Shown one piece after another: positions 2,525 through 39,654 of a stretch of DNA of 64,000 bases (the first letter of the stretch is position 1; every line of letters begins with the position of its first letter). Origin of the DNA: Janthinobacterium tructae (GTDB lineage: Bacteria > Pseudomonadota > Gammaproteobacteria > Burkholderiales > Burkholderiaceae_D). The notes under the pieces were generated by a model. That model was not told the DNA's origin. It did no database searches and saw nothing but the letters and a program-made list of their open reading frames with translations. The DNA lies in NCBI RefSeq assembly GCF_006517255.1, contig NZ_CP041185.1, positions 5,828,001 to 5,892,000 of the forward strand, in the 5' to 3' direction. Both the position numbers and the translations under genes were made by a program.

Positions 2525-2899
2525 TTACTGGCTCAAGACGACTTTGTCGGCAAAATATTCCGTCTCGCCGAAGCATTGCGTCGGCACCCCCTTGTGCTGG
2601 CTGTAGGTGACGAGGATGCGCTTGCCGGCGGCAGCCGTCAGTTGCTTCGCCACTTCTTCATTGCGCACGCTGAACTGGAATTTTTCCGGGATGGTGCCCG
2701 GCAGCGCCGTCAGCAGCAATTCACCCTCCCATGTCTTGCAGATCCAGCCCCGCTTGGAGAACTTTTGCAGGTAGCCCGCACGTTCGCCTTCCGAGTACGA
2801 GAAGCTGAGAGCCATCCACGTGTAGGCGGCCAGCAGCAGGAAGCCGGCCACGAGGAAGATGACGAAGGCGAAGGTGACTTTTTTGGTCGTAGGGGTCAT
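2525..2899 (-). CDS. Small membrane-anchored protein of unknown function
   Basis: 124 residues. A single N-terminal transmembrane helix (about residues 8-30, VTFAFVIFLVAGFLLLAAYTW) is followed by a small soluble domain with two Cys (the WICKTW and PTQCFG motifs). There is no lipobox, so this is probably an inner-membrane-anchored periplasmic domain. It lies 33 bp downstream of the tandem TerD protein in the same direction, so it may be the last gene of the Ter operon. No good Shine-Dalgarno is visible before its ATG. Short proteins of this kind are widespread in Burkholderiales without an assigned role. Confidence 0.6.
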   Translation of the reverse strand: MTPTTKKVTFAFVIFLVAGFLLLAAYTWMALSFSYSEGERAGYLQKFSKRGWICKTWEGELLLTALPGTIPEKFQFSVRNEEVAKQLTAAAGKRILVTYSQHKGVPTQCFGETEYFADKVVLSQ

Positions 2900-2932
2900 G
2901 TTAGGGGGTGAATTGTTTAGTTGGAGAAAGAT

Positions 2933-4171
2933 TTAGTCTTTCCGTCCGGCTTTCCAGTTAAGACCAAAGTTATATCTTTCGTCCATGGCCTGGTGCGCCG
3001 TGATTTTACCTTGGCCGCCGAAGTATTCCACCAATTTTGTCACCTGCAGGTTGCCGCCGTGGTTTTCCAGCATGGCGATGGCGCACATGGCGTGCGAGCT
3101 GTCCGTGTCGAGGCGCACTTCCACGGTAGGCTGGCCGGGGATCTCGATCGTCACGACGCCATCGGTGGCGGCCCAGTTCGGCACGCCTTCGTAGATGAAG
3201 GCGTATACGAGCACGCGCTTGATCTGCTCGAAATGGGTGCCGTTGATGAAGATGTTTTCGCCACTGCTGACGCTGCCCGTGCGGTCGTCGCCTTCCAGGT
3301 GAATGTACGGCGGACGGTCGTAGGCGCCCCAGCTGTTGCCCAAGGCCTGCACGGCGCTCTTGCTGCCATTGCTCATTTCGAACAGGCAGCCGATATCGAG
3401 GTCGATGCCGCCCGAACGGCTGGCCGGCTTGTTGAACAGCTTGCCGAGAAAGCCCGTGTCCAGCTTCGAGGCGGGCGCCTGGCCTTGCGCGGCGTTCTGG
3501 TTCCAGTTCAGGTTGACGCGGATGCGGCCATAGCCGCCGCTGTCGCGCTTGTCGAGCGAAATCTTGTCGCCGCGTTTTTCCAGGCGGATTTTCGACAGCG
3601 AGATTTTATTTGCCGGTGGTGGCGGTGGCGCTGCTGGCGTGGACACGGGAGCAGGGGACGACGAAGCCGCCTCGCTGCCGCCAAAGTGCTTCAGCAGCGC
3701 CGCCAGGCCGCCGGCAAAGCCCTGGCCCACGGCGCCGAAGCGCCAGCTGCCGTCGCGGCGATACAGTTCGCCGATGATGACGGCTTTCTCGTCCTGGAAG
3801 TCATTGCCCGTGAAGGCGAAGGTGGCCGCCTGGCCCAGCGCCATGCTGGAGTTGCCCAGCGCGCGCATGCTGCCCTGGTCCGTCGCCGCCGTAAATACCA
3901 GCTTGTCGATCGAGGCTGGCAGACGGGAAAGGTCGACCTGGAAGGTGGAGCGGGGGCCGTTCAAGTCCACCGTGATGGCGTTGTCCGGCGCGCTTTTCTG
4001 GTTGAAGAACACCATGTAGCGGTCGTCCGACAGCTTGCCGGCCGCATCGACGCCGAAGCAGCTGACGTCCACTTCCATCGAACCCGAAACGATATCGAGC
4101 GTGACGGCAAACGGGCCATTCAAGCCCAGGTCAGCCAGTTTGCCTTTTTGTCCGCGTGTGAAATTGGTCAT
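2933..4171 (-). CDS. TerA-like protein with two TerD-type domains
   Basis: 412 residues from the ATG at 4171, chosen because it follows a GAAGGGA Shine-Dalgarno and overlaps the upstream stop by 4 bp; the longer frame to 4321 would overlap the previous gene. Residues 1-165 form a TerD domain (EVDVSCFGVDAAGKL, SDDRYMVFFNQ, GELYRRDGSWRFGAVGQGF). Residues 170-188 are a Pro/Ala linker. Residues 189-412 form a second, TerA-type domain (GGIDLDIGCLFEMSNG, DDRTGS, SGENIFING, RVLVYAFIYEG, MCAIAMLENHGG). TerD domains bind Ca2+ through acidic residues, and Ter proteins respond to tellurite, oxidative and other stresses at the inner membrane surface. Last of the six overlapping genes. Confidence 0.85.
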   Translation of the reverse strand: MTNFTRGQKGKLADLGLNGPFAVTLDIVSGSMEVDVSCFGVDAAGKLSDDRYMVFFNQKSAPDNAITVDLNGPRSTFQVDLSRLPASIDKLVFTAATDQGSMRALGNSSMALGQAATFAFTGNDFQDEKAVIIGELYRRDGSWRFGAVGQGFAGGLAALLKHFGGSEAASSSPAPVSTPAAPPPPPANKISLSKIRLEKRGDKISLDKRDSGGYGRIRVNLNWNQNAAQGQAPASKLDTGFLGKLFNKPASRSGGIDLDIGCLFEMSNGSKSAVQALGNSWGAYDRPPYIHLEGDDRTGSVSSGENIFINGTHFEQIKRVLVYAFIYEGVPNWAATDGVVTIEIPGQPTVEVRLDTDSSHAMCAIAMLENHGGNLQVTKLVEYFGGQGKITAHQAMDERYNFGLNWKAGRKD

Positions 4172-5154
4172 GGTCGTGCAATCCCTTCGTCGCTTGAGAG
4201 TTGAGTCAATGAGGTAGTCGGCAGGTGCGCCGGTGCCGCGTCGGCCACATGGCGGATGCCGAACAGGCGCGCCTGTTCGATGATGCGCTGCGCCCAGCTG
4301 GAGTGGGTCGCCACTTCGCACATCGATTCCTGCATGCGGAACACGGCCGGGCTATCCGGGTCGATGATGCGCAGCGCCAGTTCGATGTCCGACTGCGCCA
4401 CCTGGTAGTGGCGCTCGATCTGCGGCACCTGGTCCGGGTGGATGGCCGTCTTGGCGATCATGCCGTGCGCCATGTCCTGCGCCACTTCGGCGTCCAGCCA
4501 GCTGCCCTGCGACAGGTGCTCGAAGACGGGTGCCGTCAGCTGGAAACCGTGCGGCTTGAAGATGGTCACCAGGCGGCCGATGACCTGGCCCAGCGGCGTC
4601 TGGTAAATGGTGCCGCTGGTGGGGCGGCGCAGTCCCAGCAGGGCCAGCAGATCGTTGCCGCCGATGCGCAGGGCCAGGATGCGGCGCCGCACTTCCGGCG
4701 CCGATAAAATGATGCGGAACTGCTTCATTTCCTCGTCGTCGAACACTTCCGCCGTTTCCAGCGTCGGCATCAGCAAATGGTGCGTGTGGCGCACCAGCTC
4801 GAAATACGCGGCGAAGTTGTGGCGCGTGGACTTGGGCAGCACGAAGCCGCTCAATTTGTCGGCGCCGGGCATGGCCAGCACGCGCGCCAGCACCTCGAGA
4901 TTACGCACGCGCACGAAGCGCAAGGTATCGGACTCGTCGCACATGTTTTGCAGCGCCAGCGACAAATTGAACAGCGCGTAACTGAGGTCGCGTTCCGCGA
5001 TGGCGTCTTCGGTGCAAAGTATGACCGAGCGCAAATGGCTGAATTTGTCGCCATTGGCGATCGCCAGCAAGTCCTTGTGCGTGGTCGGCACATACATGGA
5101 GGCGCCCAGCGCCGCCTTGTGTTCGCTTTGTGGGTGTAGGGAGTTGTTATCCAT
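4168..5154 (-). CDS. HpcH/HpaI aldolase or citrate-lyase-like protein of the Ter operon
   Basis: 328 residues. Motifs of the citrate-lyase beta / HpcH-HpaI TIM barrel are visible: LRFVRVRN, GFVLPKST, LMPTLETAEV, ALRIGGNDLLALLG and KTAIHPDQV. Family members cleave or form C-C bonds with Mg2+ and an acidic substrate. In Ter operons this branch is predicted to act on a small metabolite made with the ATP-grasp and PRTase neighbours. The start overlaps the StiP gene by 8 bp and the stop overlaps the TerA-like start by 4 bp, which suggests translational coupling. The substrate is unknown. The family call is firm; the pathway role is inferred from neighbours. Confidence 0.8.
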   Translation of the reverse strand: MDNNSLHPQSEHKAALGASMYVPTTHKDLLAIANGDKFSHLRSVILCTEDAIAERDLSYALFNLSLALQNMCDESDTLRFVRVRNLEVLARVLAMPGADKLSGFVLPKSTRHNFAAYFELVRHTHHLLMPTLETAEVFDDEEMKQFRIILSAPEVRRRILALRIGGNDLLALLGLRRPTSGTIYQTPLGQVIGRLVTIFKPHGFQLTAPVFEHLSQGSWLDAEVAQDMAHGMIAKTAIHPDQVPQIERHYQVAQSDIELALRIIDPDSPAVFRMQESMCEVATHSSWAQRIIEQARLFGIRHVADAAPAHLPTTSLTQLSSDEGIARP

Positions 5155-6253
5155 CGACTGCGCTCCTGATAAGGGCGACCGCCTGGTAGGGCAGCGCCGG
5201 TTCTACTGTGACGGGTATGGCTTTTTCCTGCGCCAGAAGCAGCAAATGTGCCACGTCCGGCGCATTCGTGTCGCGCACGATCAGGCGCTCGGGCACGCGG
5301 CGCAGCAGCACGCGCGTCGCTTCGCCGATGCCTGGCTTGATCAGGTTGATGTCGCTGATGCCGTATTGCTGCTGCGCAGCGGCCATGTAGGCTTGCGAGC
5401 GTGCCGCCATGGCTGGCGCATCGCTCGCTTCGGCCAGGGGGACGCCGCTGCTGGCGGCGATCGCCATGGCGTCGGCCACCAGGCCGTCGGCGAAATCGCG
5501 CGACTGGTCGTGCTGCTCGAACTGCGCGTAGTACACGCAGCCGTGGAAGTCGTCGGGGCCGATGGCATCATTCAACACGGAGCGGCTGACCAGGCCCGAG
5601 ACGGTGGCGTTCAAAATGCTCGACGGGATCAGGTAGTCGCTGGCCGAGGCGGCGCAGGCGGCCGTGCCTGCCAGGTCGGCCAGCACGAACAGGCCGCCGT
5701 CGACGGCCGTGCCATGGGCCGCGTTGAAATCGTTGACCGTCTGGCGCAATTCGCGTGAAATCACGCCCTTGCCCGTCCAGCCATCGACGAAGACGAGGGA
5801 GGCGTCACCGTGGCCCTGCGCCAGGATGTGTTTCAAGGCATTCGCATCGATGCCGCGGTCGCGGATGATGGAGACGGAATAATGGCTGCACTCGCGCTGG
5901 AATACCTGGCGCAGCAAGTGCCCCAGGATGACGCCCACAGGTGTGCCCGCGCGCGCCAGCGACACCAGCGTGATGGCGCCAGTGCGGCGCGCCGCGATCA
6001 GGGCCGCCAGGCGCAGGCAGTCGCGCGCCATCTGCAGGCGGTTGGCAGCAAACGCGCTCTGGAACAGGGCCAGGTAGGCGGGCGAGGGCAGGGATTCGGG
6101 CGACAGCATCTCGCTGTAGTGGCGCTGGCCCGACTGGATCAAACGCTCTTTTTCGGCCAGGTCGAGGATGGGCTCGAGCGCCATCGGCGTGAGCAGAAAC
6201 TCGACGTCTTCCTGGCGGTAGCTGCCGCTGAAATGCTGCGTGCTGTCGGTCAT
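5147..6253 (-). CDS. StiP-family protein with C-terminal PELOTA-type RNA-binding domain
   Basis: 368 residues from the ATG at 6253, chosen because it overlaps the HAD stop by 4 bp; the longer frame to 6499 runs inside the HAD gene. Conserved blocks are GSYRQEDVEFLL (10-21), HYSEML (45-50), SLARAGTPVG (98-107), HYSVSIIRDRGID (124-136) and FVDGWTGKG (155-163). The last ~85 residues (DINLIKPGIGEATRVLLRRVP onwards) look like the PELOTA RNA-binding fold found in such proteins. The family has been annotated as cysteine-protease-like StiP, but the SLARAGTP and VDGWTGKG blocks also resemble a phosphoribosyltransferase core. A nucleotide-processing role is therefore as plausible as proteolysis. Confidence 0.75.
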   Translation of the reverse strand: MTDSTQHFSGSYRQEDVEFLLTPMALEPILDLAEKERLIQSGQRHYSEMLSPESLPSPAYLALFQSAFAANRLQMARDCLRLAALIAARRTGAITLVSLARAGTPVGVILGHLLRQVFQRECSHYSVSIIRDRGIDANALKHILAQGHGDASLVFVDGWTGKGVISRELRQTVNDFNAAHGTAVDGGLFVLADLAGTAACAASASDYLIPSSILNATVSGLVSRSVLNDAIGPDDFHGCVYYAQFEQHDQSRDFADGLVADAMAIAASSGVPLAEASDAPAMAARSQAYMAAAQQQYGISDINLIKPGIGEATRVLLRRVPERLIVRDTNAPDVAHLLLLAQEKAIPVTVEPALPYQAVALIRSAVDG

Positions 6254-7038
6254 AGCGCCGCCACCGTGAGTGCCGCCAGCTGGGTGCCGTTGGGGATGAT
6301 GGCGTAATCGCAGGCAGCCATGAAACGCGCGTCCGAACGGCTGTCGCCCATGCCGAAGCTGACGATGGGGCCATGTTCGGCTTCCAGTTCCGCGCGCAGG
6401 TAGGCCACGGCGCGCGCCTTGTTCAGGGTCTTCGGCAGCACGGCCAGGTTGTTGCCGTTGCGGTGGATGAAGTAGTCCGAACCTTCGGCGGCGATCCACT
6501 GCTGCAGCACTTGCTCTTCGATGTCGGCCAGGCGTTCGCCGCGCGCTTCATGGTCCTTGACGACGATGTAGAACGGCGTGTTGTAATCCTCGATCAGGCG
6601 CGCGCGCGAGGGCATGCCCGTCTTGATCTGGAAATCGTCGATGATGCGCATGGCATCCTGCAGGCCGGGCAGCGCCGTCTGCATGTCGCTTTGCATCAGG
6701 GCCAGCCAGCCGGCGTCGAGCGCGCCGCCCGGCTGCAGCACGATGCCGCCGTAATCGAGCACGCTGTAGCTGGTAAACGGCAGGTCGACCCGGCGAAACG
6801 CGTCGCCATTTCTCGCCGTGGCGGGGATCAGCGTCATGCCGCTTTGGGCGAATTCAAAGAAGGCGCGCTGGCGCGCCGTCGTAAACGAACAGGCGTCGCC
6901 ATTTTTCAAATAGGCGGCCGCTTGCAGGTCGGTCTCGCCCGGGCATTTTTTCGGGGTCTGGAACAGTGTGTCGTCCAGATCAACAAACAGGAATTTCTTC
7001 AATTTTGGTCTCTGACTGAAAGTGGAACAGGCGGCCAT
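6250..7038 (-). CDS. HAD-superfamily phosphatase of the Ter operon
   Basis: 262 residues. The DxDxT nucleophile motif (D20, D22 in VDLDDTLF) and the late acidic motif GMGDSRSDARF mark a haloacid-dehalogenase hydrolase with a Cof-type cap between them; a conserved Lys (LNKARAVAYL) sits in between. It probably removes phosphate from the operon's metabolite. The start is uncertain: the ATG at 7038 has no clear Shine-Dalgarno and overlaps the PRTase gene by 59 bp, whereas a TTG at 7002 follows CAGAGA and leaves a 23-bp overlap and still keeps the whole HAD fold. The stop overlaps the StiP start by 4 bp. Confidence 0.8.
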   Translation of the reverse strand: MAACSTFSQRPKLKKFLFVDLDDTLFQTPKKCPGETDLQAAAYLKNGDACSFTTARQRAFFEFAQSGMTLIPATARNGDAFRRVDLPFTSYSVLDYGGIVLQPGGALDAGWLALMQSDMQTALPGLQDAMRIIDDFQIKTGMPSRARLIEDYNTPFYIVVKDHEARGERLADIEEQVLQQWIAAEGSDYFIHRNGNNLAVLPKTLNKARAVAYLRAELEAEHGPIVSFGMGDSRSDARFMAACDYAIIPNGTQLAALTVAAL

Positions 7039-8143
7039 TCAACTGGCCGGCGAGTTGCATGAGGGCCGGGCTGGCCGGAGTTTCATGGCAGATGAAAACG
7101 TGCTGGTACTGGCCAGGCGCCACGTTGTACAGGTAATTGGCGATGCCTTCGCCGTAATTGTCGTCGCAGTTGACGATATGGCCGACGGAGCCCCACGACA
7201 GGATGGGCGAGCGCGTGGTCGATTGCACCACCACGTTCTTTCCCAGGCTTTCCAGTTCCCGCGCGAGCAGGAACGACGGGTGCATGAATTCGCCCGTGCC
7301 CAGCACCAGCACGGAGTCGCCGGCGCCGATTTCCTGCGCCAGTTGCACCGCCAGGCCTTGCGGCGGGGTCAAGGCGCGTCCCACGCCGATGCGCCCGAAG
7401 GCGGGGCTGGCGCCGCGTTCCGCATTCGCTTCGAAGCGCTGCGCGCTGGCCGCTACCGGAGCCGGCGCATCGCCGGCCTGGAAGGCGTAGTGGCCGGACA
7501 GCGCCGCGCCTATGGTCGTGGGCAGGCCGAAACGCTGCGTGAGCCCCGCGTTGGCGGCCTGGCCCATGAAATTGGTGATCACGCCCAGGTGCAGCTTTTC
7601 CAGCTGCGGATAGCGCGCGCGGCACACTTGCACCAGGTTGGCGAAGGTGTTGCCGGTCGACGCTTCATCGTCGATCAGCACCAGGCTGCGCGCGGTGGAA
7701 AACAGGGTGCTGGCCGCATCCGATAAATGCAAGAACTGGCGCGGCGCGTGGCTGTGCGATTCCTCGAACTCGAAGAAGGGCACTGTGCCCACGCGGTAGC
7801 GCGAGCTGTGCAAAAACAGCGCCTTGCAGGAAGAGCCGGGATTGGCGCGCAGCCAGGCTTCGAACACGCCCTGGCCCAGGCCGACGGCCGTTTCCGCCAT
7901 GGCGATGAAGACCACGGGGCCGGGCAGGCTGGGGGGGATTTGCGCGGCCAGGTCGTCGTGGATGGCTTGCATGGCGCGCGGCGTGACGGGCCAGTGCTTG
8001 CCCAGCACTTTCGACAGGAACAGGAAGCCGCGTTTGGCGTTGGCGCGTGCGGCAAAGCCGATCAGCCAGTCCAGCGGAAAGCGCGCCTCGTCCACCTTCA
8101 GGGTCAGCTCACCCGTGGGCATCTGCTTCTTGACGCTGTTCAT
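6980..8143 (-). CDS. Phosphoribosyltransferase with TRSP-type C-terminal domain
   Basis: 387 residues. The PRPP-binding signature of type I PRTases is clear at 154-167 (LVLIDDEASTGNTF), preceded by the GPVVFIAMAETAVGLGQGV block at 75-93 that forms the PRTase core. The C-terminal ~120 residues (GVGRALTPPQGLAVQLAQEI, VLGTGEFMHPSFLLARELE) match the domain seen at the end of Ter-linked PRTases. Predicted to transfer phosphoribose from PRPP to an unknown base-like acceptor. The start overlaps the ATP-grasp stop by 4 bp. Together with ATP-grasp and HAD it supports a nucleoside-like product for the operon. Confidence 0.85.
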   Translation of the reverse strand: MNSVKKQMPTGELTLKVDEARFPLDWLIGFAARANAKRGFLFLSKVLGKHWPVTPRAMQAIHDDLAAQIPPSLPGPVVFIAMAETAVGLGQGVFEAWLRANPGSSCKALFLHSSRYRVGTVPFFEFEESHSHAPRQFLHLSDAASTLFSTARSLVLIDDEASTGNTFANLVQVCRARYPQLEKLHLGVITNFMGQAANAGLTQRFGLPTTIGAALSGHYAFQAGDAPAPVAASAQRFEANAERGASPAFGRIGVGRALTPPQGLAVQLAQEIGAGDSVLVLGTGEFMHPSFLLARELESLGKNVVVQSTTRSPILSWGSVGHIVNCDDNYGEGIANYLYNVAPGQYQHVFICHETPASPALMQLAGQLNGRLFHFQSETKIEEIPVC

Positions 8144-9177
8144 GGCAGCTCCACGGCGTAGGCGGCTTCGCCCACGCGCATGCCTTCGTGGATGGCGGGC
8201 ACACTGAGCTTGTCAAAGCCCTGGTCGAAGCCGGCCAGCGCCAGGTAGGGCAGGTTGGGACCGGCCGCGCACGCCATGCCGATGCCGCCCGACATGCGCG
8301 GGTTAATCTCCAACAAGGCCAGGCCATTCGCGCCTTCGCGGAACTGGATGTTGAACACGCCATTCAAGCGGTAGTCGCGCGCCAGTTTGTCGCAGGCCGC
8401 CAGCAAGTCTGCGCGCAGTTCGATCAGCTGGCCGCTGCCGCCCCCGTGCAGCTTCTTGCGCGGCACGGCGCAAATCAGCTTGCCCTGGTCGGCGACGCAA
8501 TCGGCGCTGTATTCGTGGCCGTCGAGGTATTCCATCAGCAGCAGGGTCTTGAACGATGCCATCTGCGCCAGGCCCGTGCGCAGTTCCTGCGCATTGACCT
8601 GGTAGGCGGCGCCGGCCAGCAGCAGCTGGGCGCTGCTGCGCTCTTCATCGAGTATGGCAAAGCCCAGCGCATACACGGATTCGGACGGCTTGATGCACAG
8701 CTTGCGATGCAGCGGGCGCAGTTCGGCATAGGCGGCGTCGTATTGCGCGATGGTGGTCACGGCGCGGTAGTCGGCCGGGCGCGCCATGGGCAGATCGAGG
8801 CCGTCGCAGAAGCGTGCCTTGTCGTGCATCAGGTCGAGTACCTCTTCGGTGGCCACGCTGAGCACGCGCGTGCCGAGGGCGGCGAAGCGCGCGCTGGCGC
8901 TGCCGATCAGGCCCGCTTCCTTGCCGGGCCAGAAAATCGTGATACCCCGCTCGCGGCAAAATTCCAGGCACCACTCGACATAGTTGTGGCCCGTCAGTCC
9001 CGACGGTTCGACCGCGTATTCGTGGGCCGACAAGAAGGCGGCCGCGTGCGCGTTCGTATTGCTGCACACGATGTGATAGCGGGGCACACCGCCTGTGGCG
9101 GCCATGTCGGCCTCGCGGATCAGGCGCATGGCAGTGCCGACCGAGGAAAATGTTTTGTTGAACCAGACTCTTTGCAT
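8140..9177 (-). CDS. ATP-grasp enzyme of the Ter operon
   Basis: 345 residues. The order N-terminal Rossmann-like part, central domain (KLCIKPSESVYALGF), then LLLMEYLDGHEYSADCVA and the Mg2+/ATP site LLEINPRMSGGIG is diagnostic of the ATP-grasp fold. These enzymes ligate a carboxylate (activated as acyl phosphate) to an amine or thiol. It is the first gene of the six-gene overlapping operon and lies 97 bp downstream of the AIM24-like gene. That gap carries a GC-rich hairpin but no promoter I could recognise. The acceptor is unknown. Confidence 0.85.
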   Translation of the reverse strand: MQRVWFNKTFSSVGTAMRLIREADMAATGGVPRYHIVCSNTNAHAAAFLSAHEYAVEPSGLTGHNYVEWCLEFCRERGITIFWPGKEAGLIGSASARFAALGTRVLSVATEEVLDLMHDKARFCDGLDLPMARPADYRAVTTIAQYDAAYAELRPLHRKLCIKPSESVYALGFAILDEERSSAQLLLAGAAYQVNAQELRTGLAQMASFKTLLLMEYLDGHEYSADCVADQGKLICAVPRKKLHGGGSGQLIELRADLLAACDKLARDYRLNGVFNIQFREGANGLALLEINPRMSGGIGMACAAGPNLPYLALAGFDQGFDKLSVPAIHEGMRVGEAAYAVELP

Positions 9178-9274
9178 GTACGGGGACCGGGTGGAAATAG
9201 GGGAAGCCGCGCGCAGGTGCGCGCGCGGGCAGTGTAGCCAGAAAAACTTAACCTGGCCTTATGGGGAAGGGGAA

Positions 9275-9991
9275 TCAGCCAGCTTTGCCGCTGGCTGTCC
9301 ATTTCAGGAATGCATCGCGGTTGCGCGAGCAGATGAAGACCTTGCCCGAGCCGGAAAAGCGCAGCACGATGCCTTCGCCGCTGGTCACGCTGTTGACGAT
9401 ATTGCCGAGGAAACCGCCGATGCCGCCGCCGCCCGAGCCGCCGCCCGTGGTCACGGAAATCTCGTATTTCAGGCTATTGTCCCAGCACACCACGTGGGAA
9501 TTGTCGATCACGACATCCTTGCCCGGCTCGACGTCAAGCTGGAACATGGAGCCGAAGCCCGACACCACCACTTGCCCCGTACCGGCCGTCTCCATGACGA
9601 AGAAGCCGCCCGACTGGGCGAACAGCGCGTTGCCGAGGCTTTGCGTGCGCACTTTCATTTCCGTGCCCGAGGTGGCGGCGACAAAGGCGCCGTCGTTGAG
9701 CAGGTACTGGCGCGCGCCCACGTCGACCACTTCGATGGCGCCCGGCAGGGTGGGCGAGAGCAGGCAGTCGCCGCTGCCGCGCACCGCTTCGATATGCTGC
9801 TGGAAGAACGATTCGCCGTTGGCGAAGCGGCGCATGATGGCGCCGCCCAGGCCGCCCGTCATCTTGCCTTTCAAGTCCAGCGCCGTCTCCATCATCACCA
9901 TCGCATCCGATTCGCAATAGATGGTTTCGCCCTGCTTCATGCTGACGTGGAGGAAAGGATCGACGTCGCCCGTGACACTAAATACTGGCAT
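9275..9991 (-). CDS. AIM24 / TIGR00266 family protein
   Basis: 238 residues of mostly beta structure. Family features include EAMVMMETALDLKG-like text near the start (here SDAMVMMETALDLKGK), GGLGGAIMRRFANGESFF, a DVGARQYLLNDGAFVA repeat, VDPGKD-like text (LDVEPGKDVVIDNSHVV) and the Gly-rich GGGSGGGGIGGFLGNIVNSVTSGEGIVLRFSG. Proteins of this family are soluble trimeric-looking beta-roll assemblies of uncertain role; the yeast relative AIM24 shapes mitochondrial inner membrane. They often accompany TerD genes. A good Shine-Dalgarno (GGAGA) precedes the ATG at 9991, but a strong terminator hairpin sits directly upstream of it. Confidence 0.85.
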   Translation of the reverse strand: MPVFSVTGDVDPFLHVSMKQGETIYCESDAMVMMETALDLKGKMTGGLGGAIMRRFANGESFFQQHIEAVRGSGDCLLSPTLPGAIEVVDVGARQYLLNDGAFVAATSGTEMKVRTQSLGNALFAQSGGFFVMETAGTGQVVVSGFGSMFQLDVEPGKDVVIDNSHVVCWDNSLKYEISVTTGGGSGGGGIGGFLGNIVNSVTSGEGIVLRFSGSGKVFICSRNRDAFLKWTASGKAG

Positions 9992-10002
9992 GATAAATCT
10001 CC

Positions 10003-10033
10003 AAAAAAAAGCCGCCTGATCTGTGCAGGCGGC
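10003..10033 (-). terminator. Intrinsic terminator between terD and the AIM24-like gene
   Basis: On the minus strand a perfect 8-bp GC-rich stem (10026-10033 with 10011-10018, loop 7 nt) is followed by eight T residues (10003-10010). It ends only 11 nt before the start codon at 9991, inside the leader of the AIM24-like gene. Confidence 0.8.
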
Positions 10034-10055
10034 AGCAATGATATGACATTAAGAT

Positions 10056-10180
10056 AATTCACCTCGGAAAACCGTAGCGAGCAAGCTCGATTTCGGGTCG
10101 AGTAGCGCAGCTGTACGGAGGTACAGCGAGCAACGCAGGCCCGAAAGTGAGCGGCGCAGTAGGTTTAACGAGTGTGAATT
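10056..10180. repeat. Intergenic repeat element A with terminal inverted repeats
   Basis: A 125-bp stretch is bounded by AATTCAC (10056-10062) and GTGAATT (10174-10180). It contains a short palindrome CTGTAC-GGAG-GTACAG (10111-10126) followed by cgagcaacgcag. It abuts the terD stop codon. The core resembles the element between ribH and nusB (54609-54781), so it appears to be a dispersed, non-coding family. Confidence 0.55.
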
Positions 10181-10755
10181 TAAGCGTTGACGCCGAACGA
10201 GCGTGCGAGGGGGCCCAGGCCGCCGTTGAAGCCCTGGCCGATGGCCTTGAACTTCCATTCGCCGTTGTAGCGGTAGATTTCGCCAAAGATCATCGCCGTT
10301 TCCGTCGAGCTGTCTTCGGACAGGTCGTAGCGGGCGATTTCTTTTTCGCCTTCCGCGTTCAGGCAGCGGATGAAGGCTTTCGAGACCATGCCGAAGTTCT
10401 GGCGGCGCGCGTCGGCGTCGTGAATGGTGACGGTGACGCTGATGCGGTCGATGTCGGCTGGTACGCGCGACAGGTCGATTTCGATGCGCTCATCGTCGCC
10501 TTCGCCTTCGCCCGTGGTGTTGTCGCCCGTGTGGACGACGGAACCGTCGGTCGACTTCAGGTTGTTGTAGAAGATGAAGTCAGAGTCGCCACGGACTTTG
10601 CCGTCGCTTTTCAGGAGGAAAGCACTACCGTCAAGGTCGAAGGTGGCGCCGTCCGTCGAACGAGGATCCCAGCCGAGGCCGACGATGATCTTCTTCAGGT
10701 TAGGTGCTTCCTTGCTCAGGTTGACGTTGCCGCCTTTTTGCAAACTGATTGCCAT
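10180..10755 (-). CDS. terD: TerD, Ca2+-binding tellurium-resistance/stress protein
   Basis: 191 residues, the usual length, and similar throughout to what is known of enterobacterial TerD. The N-terminus is [17 protein letters not shown]; then come [92 protein letters not shown] and [11 protein letters not shown]. The Asp-rich loops are the Ca2+ sites. TerD is cytosolic or membrane-associated and works with TerC-type membrane proteins in tellurite, phage and oxidative stress tolerance. GGAG precedes the ATG (AGGAGCACCAC). The gene lies downstream of the DUF475 gene on the same strand. Confidence 0.92.
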
Positions 10756-10786
10756 GTGGTGCTCCTTTTAGTGATTTAGCTTAAAT

Positions 10787-10823
10787 AACCGGCCGGTGGC
10801 GTGTTTTGCCTGGCTGGCCGGTT
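10787..10823 (-). promoter_or_regulatory. Hairpin in the terD leader
   Basis: An 8-bp perfect inverted repeat (AACCGGCC at 10787-10794, GGCCGGTT at 10816-10823) lies about 35 bp upstream of the terD start codon, between terD and the DUF475 stop. It could be an RNA hairpin or an operator. There is no T tract. Confidence 0.3.
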
Positions 10824-10872
10824 GTCATGCCTTCATGGGATGAGCGCCAGGCGCTCGTGCCATTACTCTCTC

Positions 10873-10895
10873 AATTGGGGGCGACGCCCCCGATT
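10873..10895 (-). terminator. Hairpin directly after the DUF475 gene
   Basis: A stem GGGGGC-GAC-GCCCCC (10877-10891) extended by AAT/ATT flanks lies immediately after the stop codon at 10896. There is no T run on the minus strand, so termination may be partial, allowing read-through into terD. Confidence 0.45.
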
Positions 10896-11978
10896 TCAAG
10901 CTTGTGCCGCGTGCCGCTTGCGATAACGCAGGGATGACCACAGCGAGACCAGGATGAAGGCCACGCCTGACAGGCCCGTGAACCACTCCGGAATATGGTA
11001 CTTGACGGACGCCAGCATGATCAAGGCCAGGATGCCGATCGCATAATGGGCGCCGTGTTCGAGGTAGACGAATTCGTCCAGCGTGCCCTTGTGCACGAGG
11101 AAGACCGTCATCGAGCGCACGAACATGGCGCCGATGGCCAGGCCCAGCATGATGATGACGACGTCGTTGGTGATGGCAAAGGCGCCGATCACGCCGTCAA
11201 AGCTGAACGAGGCATCGAGCACTTCCAGGTACAGGAAGCCGCCGATGCTGCCGCGTGCTACCGTTTTTACGAGATCGCCATTGCCGTTCCTGGCTGGCGT
11301 GGCGCCTTCTTCTGCGTCATCCTGCAAGTCCGGTTCGCCTTCTTCCAGCAAGCCGCTGATCCAGTTCACGCCGATGTAGACGGCGATGCCGACGATGCCC
11401 GCAGCGAGCACGCTGTATTTTTCATCCGCAGGGCCCATCGCCACGCAGGCCGCCACGGCGCCCATGGTGATCAGCACGGCCAGGCTTTCGGTGCCCAGCG
11501 CATTGACTTTTTCTTCGGCCCAGCCCAGCCAGTGCAATTCCTTCTCGTCGTCAAACAGGAAGTTCAGGAATACCAGCAGCAAAAAGGCGCCGCCGAAGGC
11601 CGCCACTTGCGCATGGTTGTCCGTCAGGTGCTTGGCATACACGTCCGGCGTGGTGGTGGCCATGGTCCAGACATCGACCAGGCCCAGGCCCGTGGCGACG
11701 GATACGATGACCAGCGGGAACAGCAGCCGCATGCCGAAGACGGCCACGAGGATACCGACCGTCAAAAACAGTTTTTGCCAGAATTCATTCCAGTGGCGCA
11801 AGACCGAGGCATTCACCACGGCATTGTCGAACGACAGCGACACTTCCATGACGCCCAGCACGCCCGTGATCCACAGGGCATTGATCAGGCCGGGCATGCC
11901 GCCATGGCTGTAACCCCACCAGCCCGACACCGCCATCAGGATAAAAGTGACTAAAAAGGAAATTCTGAAATGCCGCAT
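10896..11978 (-). CDS. DUF475 / TerC-like integral membrane protein
   Basis: 360 residues with about nine hydrophobic helices. The TerC-type signature appears twice: VMEVSLSFDNAVVNASVL near residues 42-59 and LEVLDASFSFDGVIGAFAIT near 253-272, each with an acidic residue in the membrane (E..SFDN, D..FSFDG) typical of TerC metal-ion exporters. A cytosolic acidic loop (EEGEPDLQDDAEEG) sits between the halves. TerC relatives export Mn2+ or act with TerD. It is first in the minus-strand Ter locus, with hairpins before terD. Family assignment is firm; the transported ion is inferred. Confidence 0.85.
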   Translation of the reverse strand: MRHFRISFLVTFILMAVSGWWGYSHGGMPGLINALWITGVLGVMEVSLSFDNAVVNASVLRHWNEFWQKLFLTVGILVAVFGMRLLFPLVIVSVATGLGLVDVWTMATTTPDVYAKHLTDNHAQVAAFGGAFLLLVFLNFLFDDEKELHWLGWAEEKVNALGTESLAVLITMGAVAACVAMGPADEKYSVLAAGIVGIAVYIGVNWISGLLEEGEPDLQDDAEEGATPARNGNGDLVKTVARGSIGGFLYLEVLDASFSFDGVIGAFAITNDVVIIMLGLAIGAMFVRSMTVFLVHKGTLDEFVYLEHGAHYAIGILALIMLASVKYHIPEWFTGLSGVAFILVSLWSSLRYRKRHAAQA

Positions 11979-12047
11979 GAGGACCCCGTTGCAAGTATGA
12001 AAGACGTTTGATTATCCGCGCCGCTGTGCGCGCCGCGCTCAGTGTTG

Positions 12048-12069
12048 ATATACGTCAATTGTTGTATAT
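12048..12069. promoter_or_regulatory. Dyad in the divergent DUF475 / PAP2-like promoter region
   Basis: ATATAC (12048-12053) and GTATAT (12064-12069) form a 6-10-6 inverted repeat in the AT-rich gap between the two divergent genes. It is placed 70 bp upstream of the DUF475 start, as expected for a regulator site. The regulator is unknown. Confidence 0.3.
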
Positions 12070-12212
12070 GCCATGATTTTATATTAGTTGCCGCCGGGGG
12101 CCGCGTTTTATAGTCTGGCGCCAGACAGTTCTGCTGGCGCGGATGATCTGCGATAATTGCGGCGCGCCCGTCTCTCCAGACACACTCTCTACATATAAAA
12201 GAAGGAATACCC

Positions 12213-12638
12213 GTGGATATCGCTTACCTCGTCACGCCCCTGATCGCCTGGATCCTGGTCGGACCGATCAAATTCCTGATCAACAGTGTCCGCACGCGGC
12301 AATGGGCGTTCGGCCTGGTCGGCAATGGCGGCTTTCCCAGCAACCATAGCGCCGTCGTGTCCAGCATGGCAACGTTGATCGCCTTGCGCGAAGGCATCGG
12401 CCACCCCGCCTTCGGCGTGGCTGTGACCCTGGCCTTCATCGTCATCATCGACGCCAACAGCCTGCGCCAGCACGTGGGCAAGCAGGCGGCGGCCATCAAC
12501 CGCCTGGCCGGGGAAGCGGCCAGCGCCGCGCACAAGACCTTGCGCGAGCGCATGGGCCATACCCTGGTGGAAATCGCCGGCGGCCTGTGCACGGGCGTGG
12601 CGATCGGTTTCCTGATCAACACCGTTTTTAGCCGCTAA
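12213..12638 (+). CDS. Divergent PAP2 / DUF212 family membrane protein
   Basis: 141 residues. The GTG start at 12213 follows GAAGGA. The conserved core WILVGPIKFLIN, GGFPSNHSAVVSSMATLIALREG, AFIVIIDANSLRQHVGKQA and LRERMGHTLVEIAGGLCTGVAIGFLI matches the YuiD-type acid-phosphatase/vanadium-dependent haloperoxidase-related family (DUF212). It has four membrane helices and retains the PSNHSA motif that corresponds to the PAP2 active-site block. Predicted inner-membrane phosphatase acting on a lipid or polyprenyl phosphate; substrate unknown. A strong terminator follows. Confidence 0.85.
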   Translation: MDIAYLVTPLIAWILVGPIKFLINSVRTRQWAFGLVGNGGFPSNHSAVVSSMATLIALREGIGHPAFGVAVTLAFIVIIDANSLRQHVGKQAAAINRLAGEAASAAHKTLRERMGHTLVEIAGGLCTGVAIGFLINTVFSR

Positions 12639-27683: not shown

Positions 27684-27759
27684 TGGTAGGCCGTGCGGGA
27701 TTCGAACCTGCGACCAACGGATTAAAAGTCCGCTGCTCTACCAGCTGAGCTAACGACCC
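27684..27759 (-). tRNA. tRNA-Lys (anticodon TTT)
   Basis: 76 nt including an encoded CCA. The cloverleaf is complete: acceptor GGGTCGT pairing with ACGGCCT-type 3' arm, D loop AGCTCAGCTGGTAGAGC, anticodon loop CTTTTAA with anticodon TTT, and T arm GGTTCGAATCC. Second of a tandem pair in transcription order. Confidence 0.97.
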
Positions 27760-27837
27760 AAAAACTTTGACTACTTACTGCGGTAATACTGTGCGGTGAT
27801 GCTTGCCATGAAGACTTGCAAACGAACCACAAATTCT

Positions 27838-27913
27838 TGGTAGGCCGTGCGGGATTCGAACCTGCGACCAACGGATTAAAAGTCCGCTGCTCTACCAGCT
27901 GAGCTAACGACCC
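27838..27913 (-). tRNA. tRNA-Lys (anticodon TTT)
   Basis: Same 76-nt sequence as the copy at 27684-27759, with encoded CCA. First of the tandem pair in transcription order, separated by a 78-nt spacer. Confidence 0.97.
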
Positions 27914-33395: not shown

Positions 33396-33471
33396 TGGTA
33401 GGCCGTGCGGGATTCGAACCTGCGACCAACGGATTAAAAGTCCGCTGCTCTACCAGCTGAGCTAACGACCC
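33396..33471 (-). tRNA. tRNA-Lys (anticodon TTT)
   Basis: 76 nt with encoded CCA and anticodon TTT, identical in sequence to the copies near 27.7 kb. Second gene of pair 2 in transcription order. Confidence 0.97.
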
Positions 33472-33560
33472 AAAAACTTTTTACAACAACTTCGGTAACA
33501 CTGTGCTGTAAAAAAATGCTTGCTGGTACAACTCGCAAGCAGATCAGTACTGCGTATTCG

Positions 33561-33636
33561 TGGTAGGCCGTGCGGGATTCGAACCTGCGACCAACGGATT
33601 AAAAGTCCGCTGCTCTACCAGCTGAGCTAACGACCC
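33561..33636 (-). tRNA. tRNA-Lys (anticodon TTT)
   Basis: Fourth identical 76-nt tRNA-Lys copy. First of pair 2 in transcription order, 68 bp downstream of the cpoB stop. The spacer to its partner is 89 nt. Confidence 0.97.
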
Positions 33637-39103: not shown

Positions 39104-39419
39104 GTTTATTGCGCCAGTAGTGAGATTGAGCAACATTTTACGCGATTTTTCTTCTTGTGACTGTGGGCGCTTGCTGGAAAGCCATGCAAAAGCTGCATAT
39201 AAGTTGCACCGCAGCATTGTAAATCCGGGGGGCGCAATGGCAAGCTTCGTAACATACGCTTACATGCCGCAGCCAGGTTTACGTTTAGCTTAAGAGCCGC
39301 AGTCACGCTGCGGGGCGGCCTGGGCCCATGCCCGGGCTGCGATGGCGCGCCGCGATTATAGCTGCACGGTTGCATTCCTTGCTCAATTTGGGCACTTAAC
39401 TTACAATTTGATTTCCATT

Positions 39420-39540
39420 ACGTCTCACGTGACTGGCGAAAAGTCGGGCGATCTCCCTGGATGGCGATCGGCAAACCGGCGAAAGGTGGGCACCCACCGG
39501 GAAACGTGAGATTTTTCATCAGCCGTTCGCCTGGGTAGCC
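39420..39540 (+). ncRNA. ZTP (pfl-type) riboswitch upstream of glyA
   Basis: P1 strands TCTCACG (39423-39429) and CGTGAGA (39505-39511) pair perfectly. The conserved elements of the pfl motif follow in order: GTGACTGGCG next to P1, CCACCGGGAAACGTGA closing the first domain, then a short linker and CCGTTCGCCTGGGTAG, where CGCC can form the pseudoknot with GGCG at 39435-39438. The class senses ZMP/ZTP, which accumulates when 10-formyl-tetrahydrofolate is short, and typically raises expression of one-carbon genes such as glyA. Nothing else is recognised in the gap 39104-39419. Confidence 0.88.
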
Positions 39541-39654
39541 ACTATGGAAAAGCACGAAGAGGCTGCCTGTCCAATGTTGTTATTCACTTAACGCCGGCTC
39601 CCCTCATTCGATCCAACCTGCCAGTACAAGCACCCTCATACTTGGAGTTTTTAC

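Follow-up and report, generated by a model that had tools for sequence, protein, structure and literature searches.

A chromosomal Ter-associated biosynthetic cluster in Janthinobacterium with AIM24 and DUF475 genes as probable accessories

A Ter-associated biosynthetic gene cluster was reportedly named in a study of 2012. PMC12839542 merely cites the naming paper. According to PMC7824862, Ter systems make nucleoside or nucleotide derivatives as a signal through phosphoribosyltransferases (PRTases) and HAD enzymes, TerB and TerD may sense that signal and TerC respond to it, and phage ME3 carries such a system; PMC8115787 repeats the prediction of a nucleoside-like product. Here we analyse a relative of these systems in Janthinobacterium tructae, in a 64,000-nucleotide stretch of contig NZ_CP041185.1 (positions 5,828,001–5,892,000; hereafter the window, whose own coordinates are used throughout). 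Ten open genes, all on the minus strand between 11978 and 2525, encode in order DUF475, TerD, AIM24/TIGR00266, ATP-grasp, PRTase_2–TRSP, HAD, StiP–PELOTA, C–C lyase and TerA-like proteins and a protein of 124 residues; their place and shared strand are as a preliminary description of the window had given them. The locus represents the published Ter-associated biosynthetic cluster on a chromosome, as a new family member and not as a new system. The preliminary description had proposed an uncharacterised system with a nucleoside-like product; the product prediction is indeed in print (PMC8115787, PMC7824862), and the same enzyme set is known from tellurite-resistance plasmids and a giant phage, which removes the claim of novelty.

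The source genome is a single contig of 6.31 Mb with one PRTase_2 copy, and the near relatives of the locus are in Janthinobacterium. The window was compared with 86 related loci (26 + 60); the first contig scan used exact words and reaches close relatives only, and the 26 family-level hits from the window's own genus are not all among the loci compared. Pfam families were matched above cut-off by nine of the ten proteins (the exception is the 124-residue protein), and the five enzyme families each exceed the curated cut-off, in agreement with the earlier assignments: an ATP-grasp enzyme of the ATPgrasp_Ter family (8140–9177; PF15632, 147.5 bits), PRTase_2 with a TRSP domain (6980–8143; PF15609, 197 bits; PF12500, 71 bits), a HAD phosphatase (6250–7002; PF08282, a general model, 28.6 bits), StiP with a PELOTA (L7Ae-like) domain (5147–6253; PF11202, 330 bits; PF15608, 114 bits) and a C–C bond lyase of a TIM-barrel family (4168–5154; PF15617, 307 bits). 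The TerA-like protein that follows (2933–4171; PF02342, 115 bits) had been called tandem; Pfam sees one TerD domain in it, but PHROGs (PHROG 5698) sees two stretches, which agrees with a tandem arrangement. Together with TerD itself (10180–10755; PF02342, 291 bits), this domain places the enzyme set beside TerD-family genes. TerB, the linked gene expected of a canonical terZABCDE(F) operon, was not matched among the ten proteins (the remaining genome was not searched for it), and the earlier epithet 'complete' is too strong.

The six genes from ATP-grasp to TerA-like form a tight core, as had been proposed from their overlaps. In the window these measure 4 base pairs (bp) between ATP-grasp and PRTase_2 (from ATG 8143), 4 bp between HAD and StiP, 8 bp between StiP and the lyase, and 4 bp between the lyase and the TerA-like gene. 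The proposed 59-bp overlap at HAD fared less well: it follows from ATG 7038, before which no Shine–Dalgarno-like sequence was seen, whereas TTG 7002 gives 23 bp, and in 54 of 85 loci a TTG stands equally far from the stop codon of the PRTase gene. The HAD gene therefore likely starts at TTG 7002, with ATG 7038 as a possible start; we grade this likely rather than proven because spacing counts limited to Met codons are split (−23 in 22/85 loci, −59 in 19/85). Elsewhere the packing recurs: the HAD–StiP overlap is 4 bp in 48/84 loci, StiP–lyase 8 bp in 70/81 and lyase–TerA-like 4 bp in 43/73. All spacing counts follow a rule that takes the nearest upstream Met, under which ATP-grasp/PRTase appears as +17 in 25/80, while ATG 8143 of the window gives the 4-bp overlap. 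Neighbouring core pairs are almost never on opposite strands (1/80, 0/85, 0/84 and 0/81), and the five enzymes repeat in the same order across many unrelated loci, so that this is not a chance array. All ten genes look constrained, with nonsynonymous-to-synonymous rate ratios (dN/dS) of at most 0.31 in 50/50 comparisons (each gene of the window against L013, L021, L023, L026 and L028).

Of 398 genomes sampled from the phylum, 12 had a PRTase_2 match above cut-off, and of 294 from the family, 73. Co-occurrence, a check that the preliminary description had suggested, was counted in the phylum sample from matches above cut-off only. TerD accompanies PRTase_2 in 11 of 12 genomes (1.27 expected, p = 5.5e-11), a strong association. 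PRTase_2 shows no enrichment with AIM24 (3/12, 2.53 expected, p = 0.48); for DUF475 the count is 3/12 (1.12 expected, p = 0.09). AIM24 itself is found with TerD in 21 of 42 genomes (8.86 expected, p = 9e-6).

The enzyme set probably makes a nucleotide-like stress molecule, as predicted for the family. In the whole explanation that we prefer, at a probability of roughly 0.5, TerD/TerA-type proteins bind the nucleotide-like product of a chromosomal Ter biosynthetic cluster; the observed part of this explanation consists of the five enzyme families with their conserved motifs, the close gene order, purifying selection and the PRTase_2–TerD association. PRTase_2 would join phosphoribosyl pyrophosphate (PRPP) to a base-like acceptor, and StiP, as a second PRTase-fold protein with an L7Ae-type tail, would use a related substrate or one linked to RNA; the HAD protein would remove phosphate, the C–C lyase would make or break a side-chain C–C bond, and the ATP-grasp enzyme would ligate a carboxylate. 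The resulting nucleoside- or nucleotide-like product would be bound by TerD/TerA-type proteins, whose partner under envelope or metal stress would be a TerC-like membrane protein, in this locus DUF475. The membrane/sensor module (DUF475, TerD, AIM24) would in Janthinobacterium be fixed upstream of the core, and a terminator-like hairpin that follows TerD would reduce AIM24 expression or make it conditional.

The two PRTase-related proteins carry much of this scheme. In PRTase_2 the PRPP-loop residues are invariant in 22 sequences, and the predicted model resembles adenine PRTases. The predicted strand order of TRSP suggested a possible second, degenerate PRTase domain; the profile comparison for it was not significant (3.0–3.2% probability), and the fold listing covers residues 18–223 only. 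The predicted model of StiP has a PRTase fold, classed as type I, and an L7Ae-like tail; it aligns with PyrR/HPRT-type proteins in 49 of the 50 matches listed. Foldseek rows ordered by E-value are led by pyridoxal-phosphate (PLP) enzymes with a root-mean-square deviation of about 17–23 Å and a TM-score of about 0.2, which we take as noise. The tail matches L7Ae (E = 0.0015, profile of 22 sequences), and its alignment keeps the E, T and K/R of E-x-T-K/R and not the L7Ae N; by sequence it qualifies as an L7Ae-type domain with putative RNA binding. That StiP is instead a cysteine protease, so that the cluster would include a proteolytic step, is extremely unlikely. The Pfam title of PF11202 speaks for it, as does one cysteine column (83/85) beside an invariant histidine, but no cysteine is among the invariant columns of the 22 sequences, that best column holds alanine in L044 and valine in L103, and the model aligns with PyrR/HPRT-type proteins as above. 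No peptidase is among the 50 rows shown, which are a second look at Foldseek's own matches, and this absence excludes nothing.

Several observations weigh against our preferred reading. A canonical PRPP loop has two acids before TG; that of StiP reads VDGWTGKG, with one, which lowers the case for a PRPP-using PRTase activity and not that for the fold. The profile comparison of StiP with PRTase_2 was not significant (1.6–2.5%, against 5.1% for a HAD control). In four loci (L044–L047) no ATP-grasp or lyase gene was matched beside PRTase, HAD and StiP, so the full pathway is not always needed; these three enzymes are a possible minimum set. Finally, the reported TerC phenotypes in Klebsiella conflict: TerC was dispensable for metal and peroxide resistance in PMC9933665, and terC conferred tellurite and zinc resistance in PMC12054061.

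The latter report belongs to a different explanation, in which TerD and DUF475 handle tellurite or metal directly and the enzymes make a metal-binding small molecule and not a signal. DUF475 is TerC-related (10896–11978; PF04332, 359 bits; PF03741 TerC, 65 bits, cut-off 27.8), and TerC proteins metalate exported enzymes (PMC10550928). We consider this explanation unlikely, given that terZ–F without the enzymes is sufficient for tellurite resistance in Escherichia coli MG1655 (PMC8115787); there, the enzymes are not needed for that resistance.

Antiphage defence, in which the enzymes would produce a signal of infection to which the Ter membrane proteins react, has been published as a hypothesis for Ter systems (PMC7824862) and was raised for this locus by the preliminary description. 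Genes for PRTase, HAD and StiP, together with a TerD-like one, are found in a jumbo phage, and a contig from IMG/VR (L103) holds the same five enzyme families in a different order, adjoining macrodomain and ADP-ribosylglycohydrolase genes; none of the ten proteins scanned there is a TerD. The locus itself adds nothing to the hypothesis: PADLOC-DB 2.0.0 matched 0 of its 10 proteins (E of 0.01 or better), on which account a defence-system label was rejected, and 26 of 28 Janthinobacterium loci share one neighbouring divergent gene, a constancy that suggests a settled position in the chromosome rather than a mobile defence island. We regard a defence role here as unlikely. That the enzyme set stays together despite reshuffling supports a common pathway. 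On L103 the core (3901–12363) adjoins Macro and ADP_ribosyl_GH genes, and phage ME3 has a gene annotated for Appr-1-p processing nearby; a link of the Ter enzymes to ADP-ribose chemistry is possible.

The preliminary description had joined AIM24 and DUF475 to the core as partners. Overlaps, however, are confined to the six core genes, and the upstream gaps measure 140 bp (DUF475–TerD), 188 bp (TerD–AIM24) and 97 bp (AIM24–ATP-grasp). The TerD–AIM24 gap, 62 to 190 bp long across species, contains in the window a dispersed palindromic repeat (10042–10178, about 100 bp of that stretch; at least 38 genome matches including itself, a lower bound with 40 of 57 candidates scored; z = −5.57 for the hairpin of 10050–10178) and then a terminator-like hairpin (10003–10033), whose eight T lead directly into the Shine–Dalgarno-like GGAG ahead of the AIM24 start (9275–9991; PF01987, 189 bits; TIGR00266, 134 bits, cut-off 96.6). 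By a fixed rule, such a hairpin was found in 25 of 26 Janthinobacterium TerD–AIM24 gaps, against 2.5% of mononucleotide shuffles, and in 0/26 DUF475–TerD and 5/26 AIM24–ATP-grasp gaps; the 26 loci are related, hence not independent, and the remaining one (L096) has an imperfect version. No hairpin was seen by eye before AIM24 in eight AIM24 loci outside this set. A terminator scan of 10 kb gave 13 terminator-like sites against 9.5 in shuffles, a weak genome statistic, and the case rests on the best-scoring site and its recurrence in 25/26 loci. A sigma-70 promoter search over 10 kb returned a single weak site, where shuffles gave 2.1. In 9 of the 26 loci the gap is just 62–68 bp, which leaves little promoter room, so that expression of AIM24 in these loci may rely on read-through or a promoter within TerD.

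Linkage varies as well. AIM24 adjoins the core in all 26 Janthinobacterium-group loci having 4.5 kb of upstream sequence. Among 33 loci of the related genera g3 and g223 none shows this neighbourhood, and 7 loci from g224, g241, g242 and g249 do. Three genomes of the phylum sample have PRTase_2 and AIM24, and in the window's alone do the two share a contig. A core tree of 70 rows requires at least four changes of the AIM24-linked state, not counting rows with little upstream sequence, or six if these are made a third state (AIM24 group); for this tree Janthinobacterium was thinned to 14, L082 and L095 were removed for broken or repeated frames, and loci without both PRTase_2 and StiP were left out. 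A second DUF475–TerD–AIM24–TerA-like set in the same genome (L036, 7157–10400) has no biosynthetic enzymes and adjoins a LysR-type regulator gene, and in L080 a DUF475–TerD–AIM24 module comes after the core, 907 bp past the TerA-like gene; enzymes and membrane module are thus separable.

An alternative holds that all ten genes are one functional and transcriptional unit with AIM24 and DUF475 as obligate partners of the enzymes. It would account for the agreement in strand and order among the 26 Janthinobacterium-group loci with sufficient sequence, the same arrangement with extra TerD-type genes in L066, L069, L071, L074 and L087, and the DUF475 and TerD genes ahead of the core on pPNAP04. The hairpin before AIM24, the absence of AIM24 from the g3 and g223 loci and its lack of enrichment with PRTase_2, the module found apart from or behind the core and the repeated state changes make it improbable. 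A single operon from DUF475 to the small protein was rejected on the hairpin and the variable linkage; the upstream genes and the core are not shown to be one unit, and AIM24 and DUF475 are, judged by gene linkage, accessory to the core.

Hairpin and StiP tail can also be combined. StiP would then be an RNA-directed PRTase-like enzyme, its L7Ae-type tail docking a structured RNA while the divergent loop DGWTGKG acts on a base or ribose within or attached to this RNA, and the Ter metabolite would thus be made on RNA or carried by it; read-through of the hairpin would switch AIM24, and perhaps the genes after it, in Janthinobacterium. We hold this combination to be very unlikely.

Some further features of the locus and its surroundings were recorded. 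The 124-residue protein (2525–2899) has one N-terminal hydrophobic segment by eye and no Pfam match, its sole NCBIfam match being far under cut-off; it occurs in 27 of 28 Janthinobacterium loci, and L069 has a 57% identical copy whose frame overlaps the lyase gene by 26 bp. Ahead of the ATP-grasp gene (9178–9274) lie a palindrome-like element, AAGGCCAGGTTAAG...CTGGC, and a GC-rich hairpin, retained in most near relatives and present in one genomic copy; a regulon of the element TAAGGCCAGGTTAAG was rejected on its single genome copy at one mismatch or fewer. A third ter locus in the same genome (L035, 6795–10060) encodes TerD together with a TerD-domain protein and a TerD protein to which a TerF-type vWA domain is joined. 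Three more AIM24-family matches stand in a row at 4851176–4853043 of the source genome (G000), making five with the window and L036. In another Janthinobacterium genome (G631; L095, 9700–10885) the PRTase gene is split over two frames, the other copies being intact. At the gathering threshold Rfam has six matches in the window, none of them inside 2525–11978; a ZMP/ZTP riboswitch scores above it at 39419–39543, and four tRNA-Lys (ttt) genes with equal Rfam scores lie on the minus strand in two pairs about 5.7 kb apart (27684–27913 and 33396–33636).

A single-copy chromosomal version in an environmental genus is a convenient place to seek the product of the cluster. Among 72,556 plasmid records examined, 2,554, largely from enterobacteria, carry relatives of its PRTase, and in 2,537 the match spans 80% or more of the query. 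The corrections made here (the HAD start, the hairpin, the accessory standing of AIM24 and DUF475, and the doubt about a StiP protease) alter which deletions and constructs would be informative.

In the literature searched, to which subscription papers are mostly external, we found no description of the Janthinobacterium arrangement or of the hairpin before AIM24. The upstream module recalls the group I ter genes of Psychrobacter, in which an AIM24/TIGR00266 gene also stands beside TerD (PMC5822837); the main text of that article mentions no ATP-grasp, phosphoribosyl, PELOTA or citrate lyase. Acinetobacter phage ME3 shares a PRTase_2 relative, HAD and a StiP relative in that order, near which lie a TerD-like gene, a vWA gene and a membrane protein; it differs in having no ATP-grasp or lyase annotated within the 12.6 kb seen; its PRTase is only 22% identical to that of the window in alignment. 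On the Raoultella ornithinolytica plasmid NZ_MT136604 (L099), ATP-grasp, PRTase, a HAD-sized gene (annotated as hypothetical), StiP and HpcH/HpaI lyase genes follow in the same order on one strand. There the cluster points away from TerD, TerD, TerC, TerB and more TerD genes, and a DUF4236 gene and TerW come after it, whereas in the window, with no TerB matched among the ten proteins, TerD, AIM24 and DUF475 lie upstream on the same strand. Plasmid pPNAP04 of Polaromonas naphthalenivorans (L098) lists no AIM24, but a gap of about 600 bp lies at its place and the gene table is incomplete. It has more TerD genes than the window, and kinase, phosphatase and TerY-C genes come after; like the window, it carries DUF475, TerD genes, the five enzymes and a TerD-family gene on one strand, in the order DUF475, TerD, TerD, the gap, TerD and then the core.

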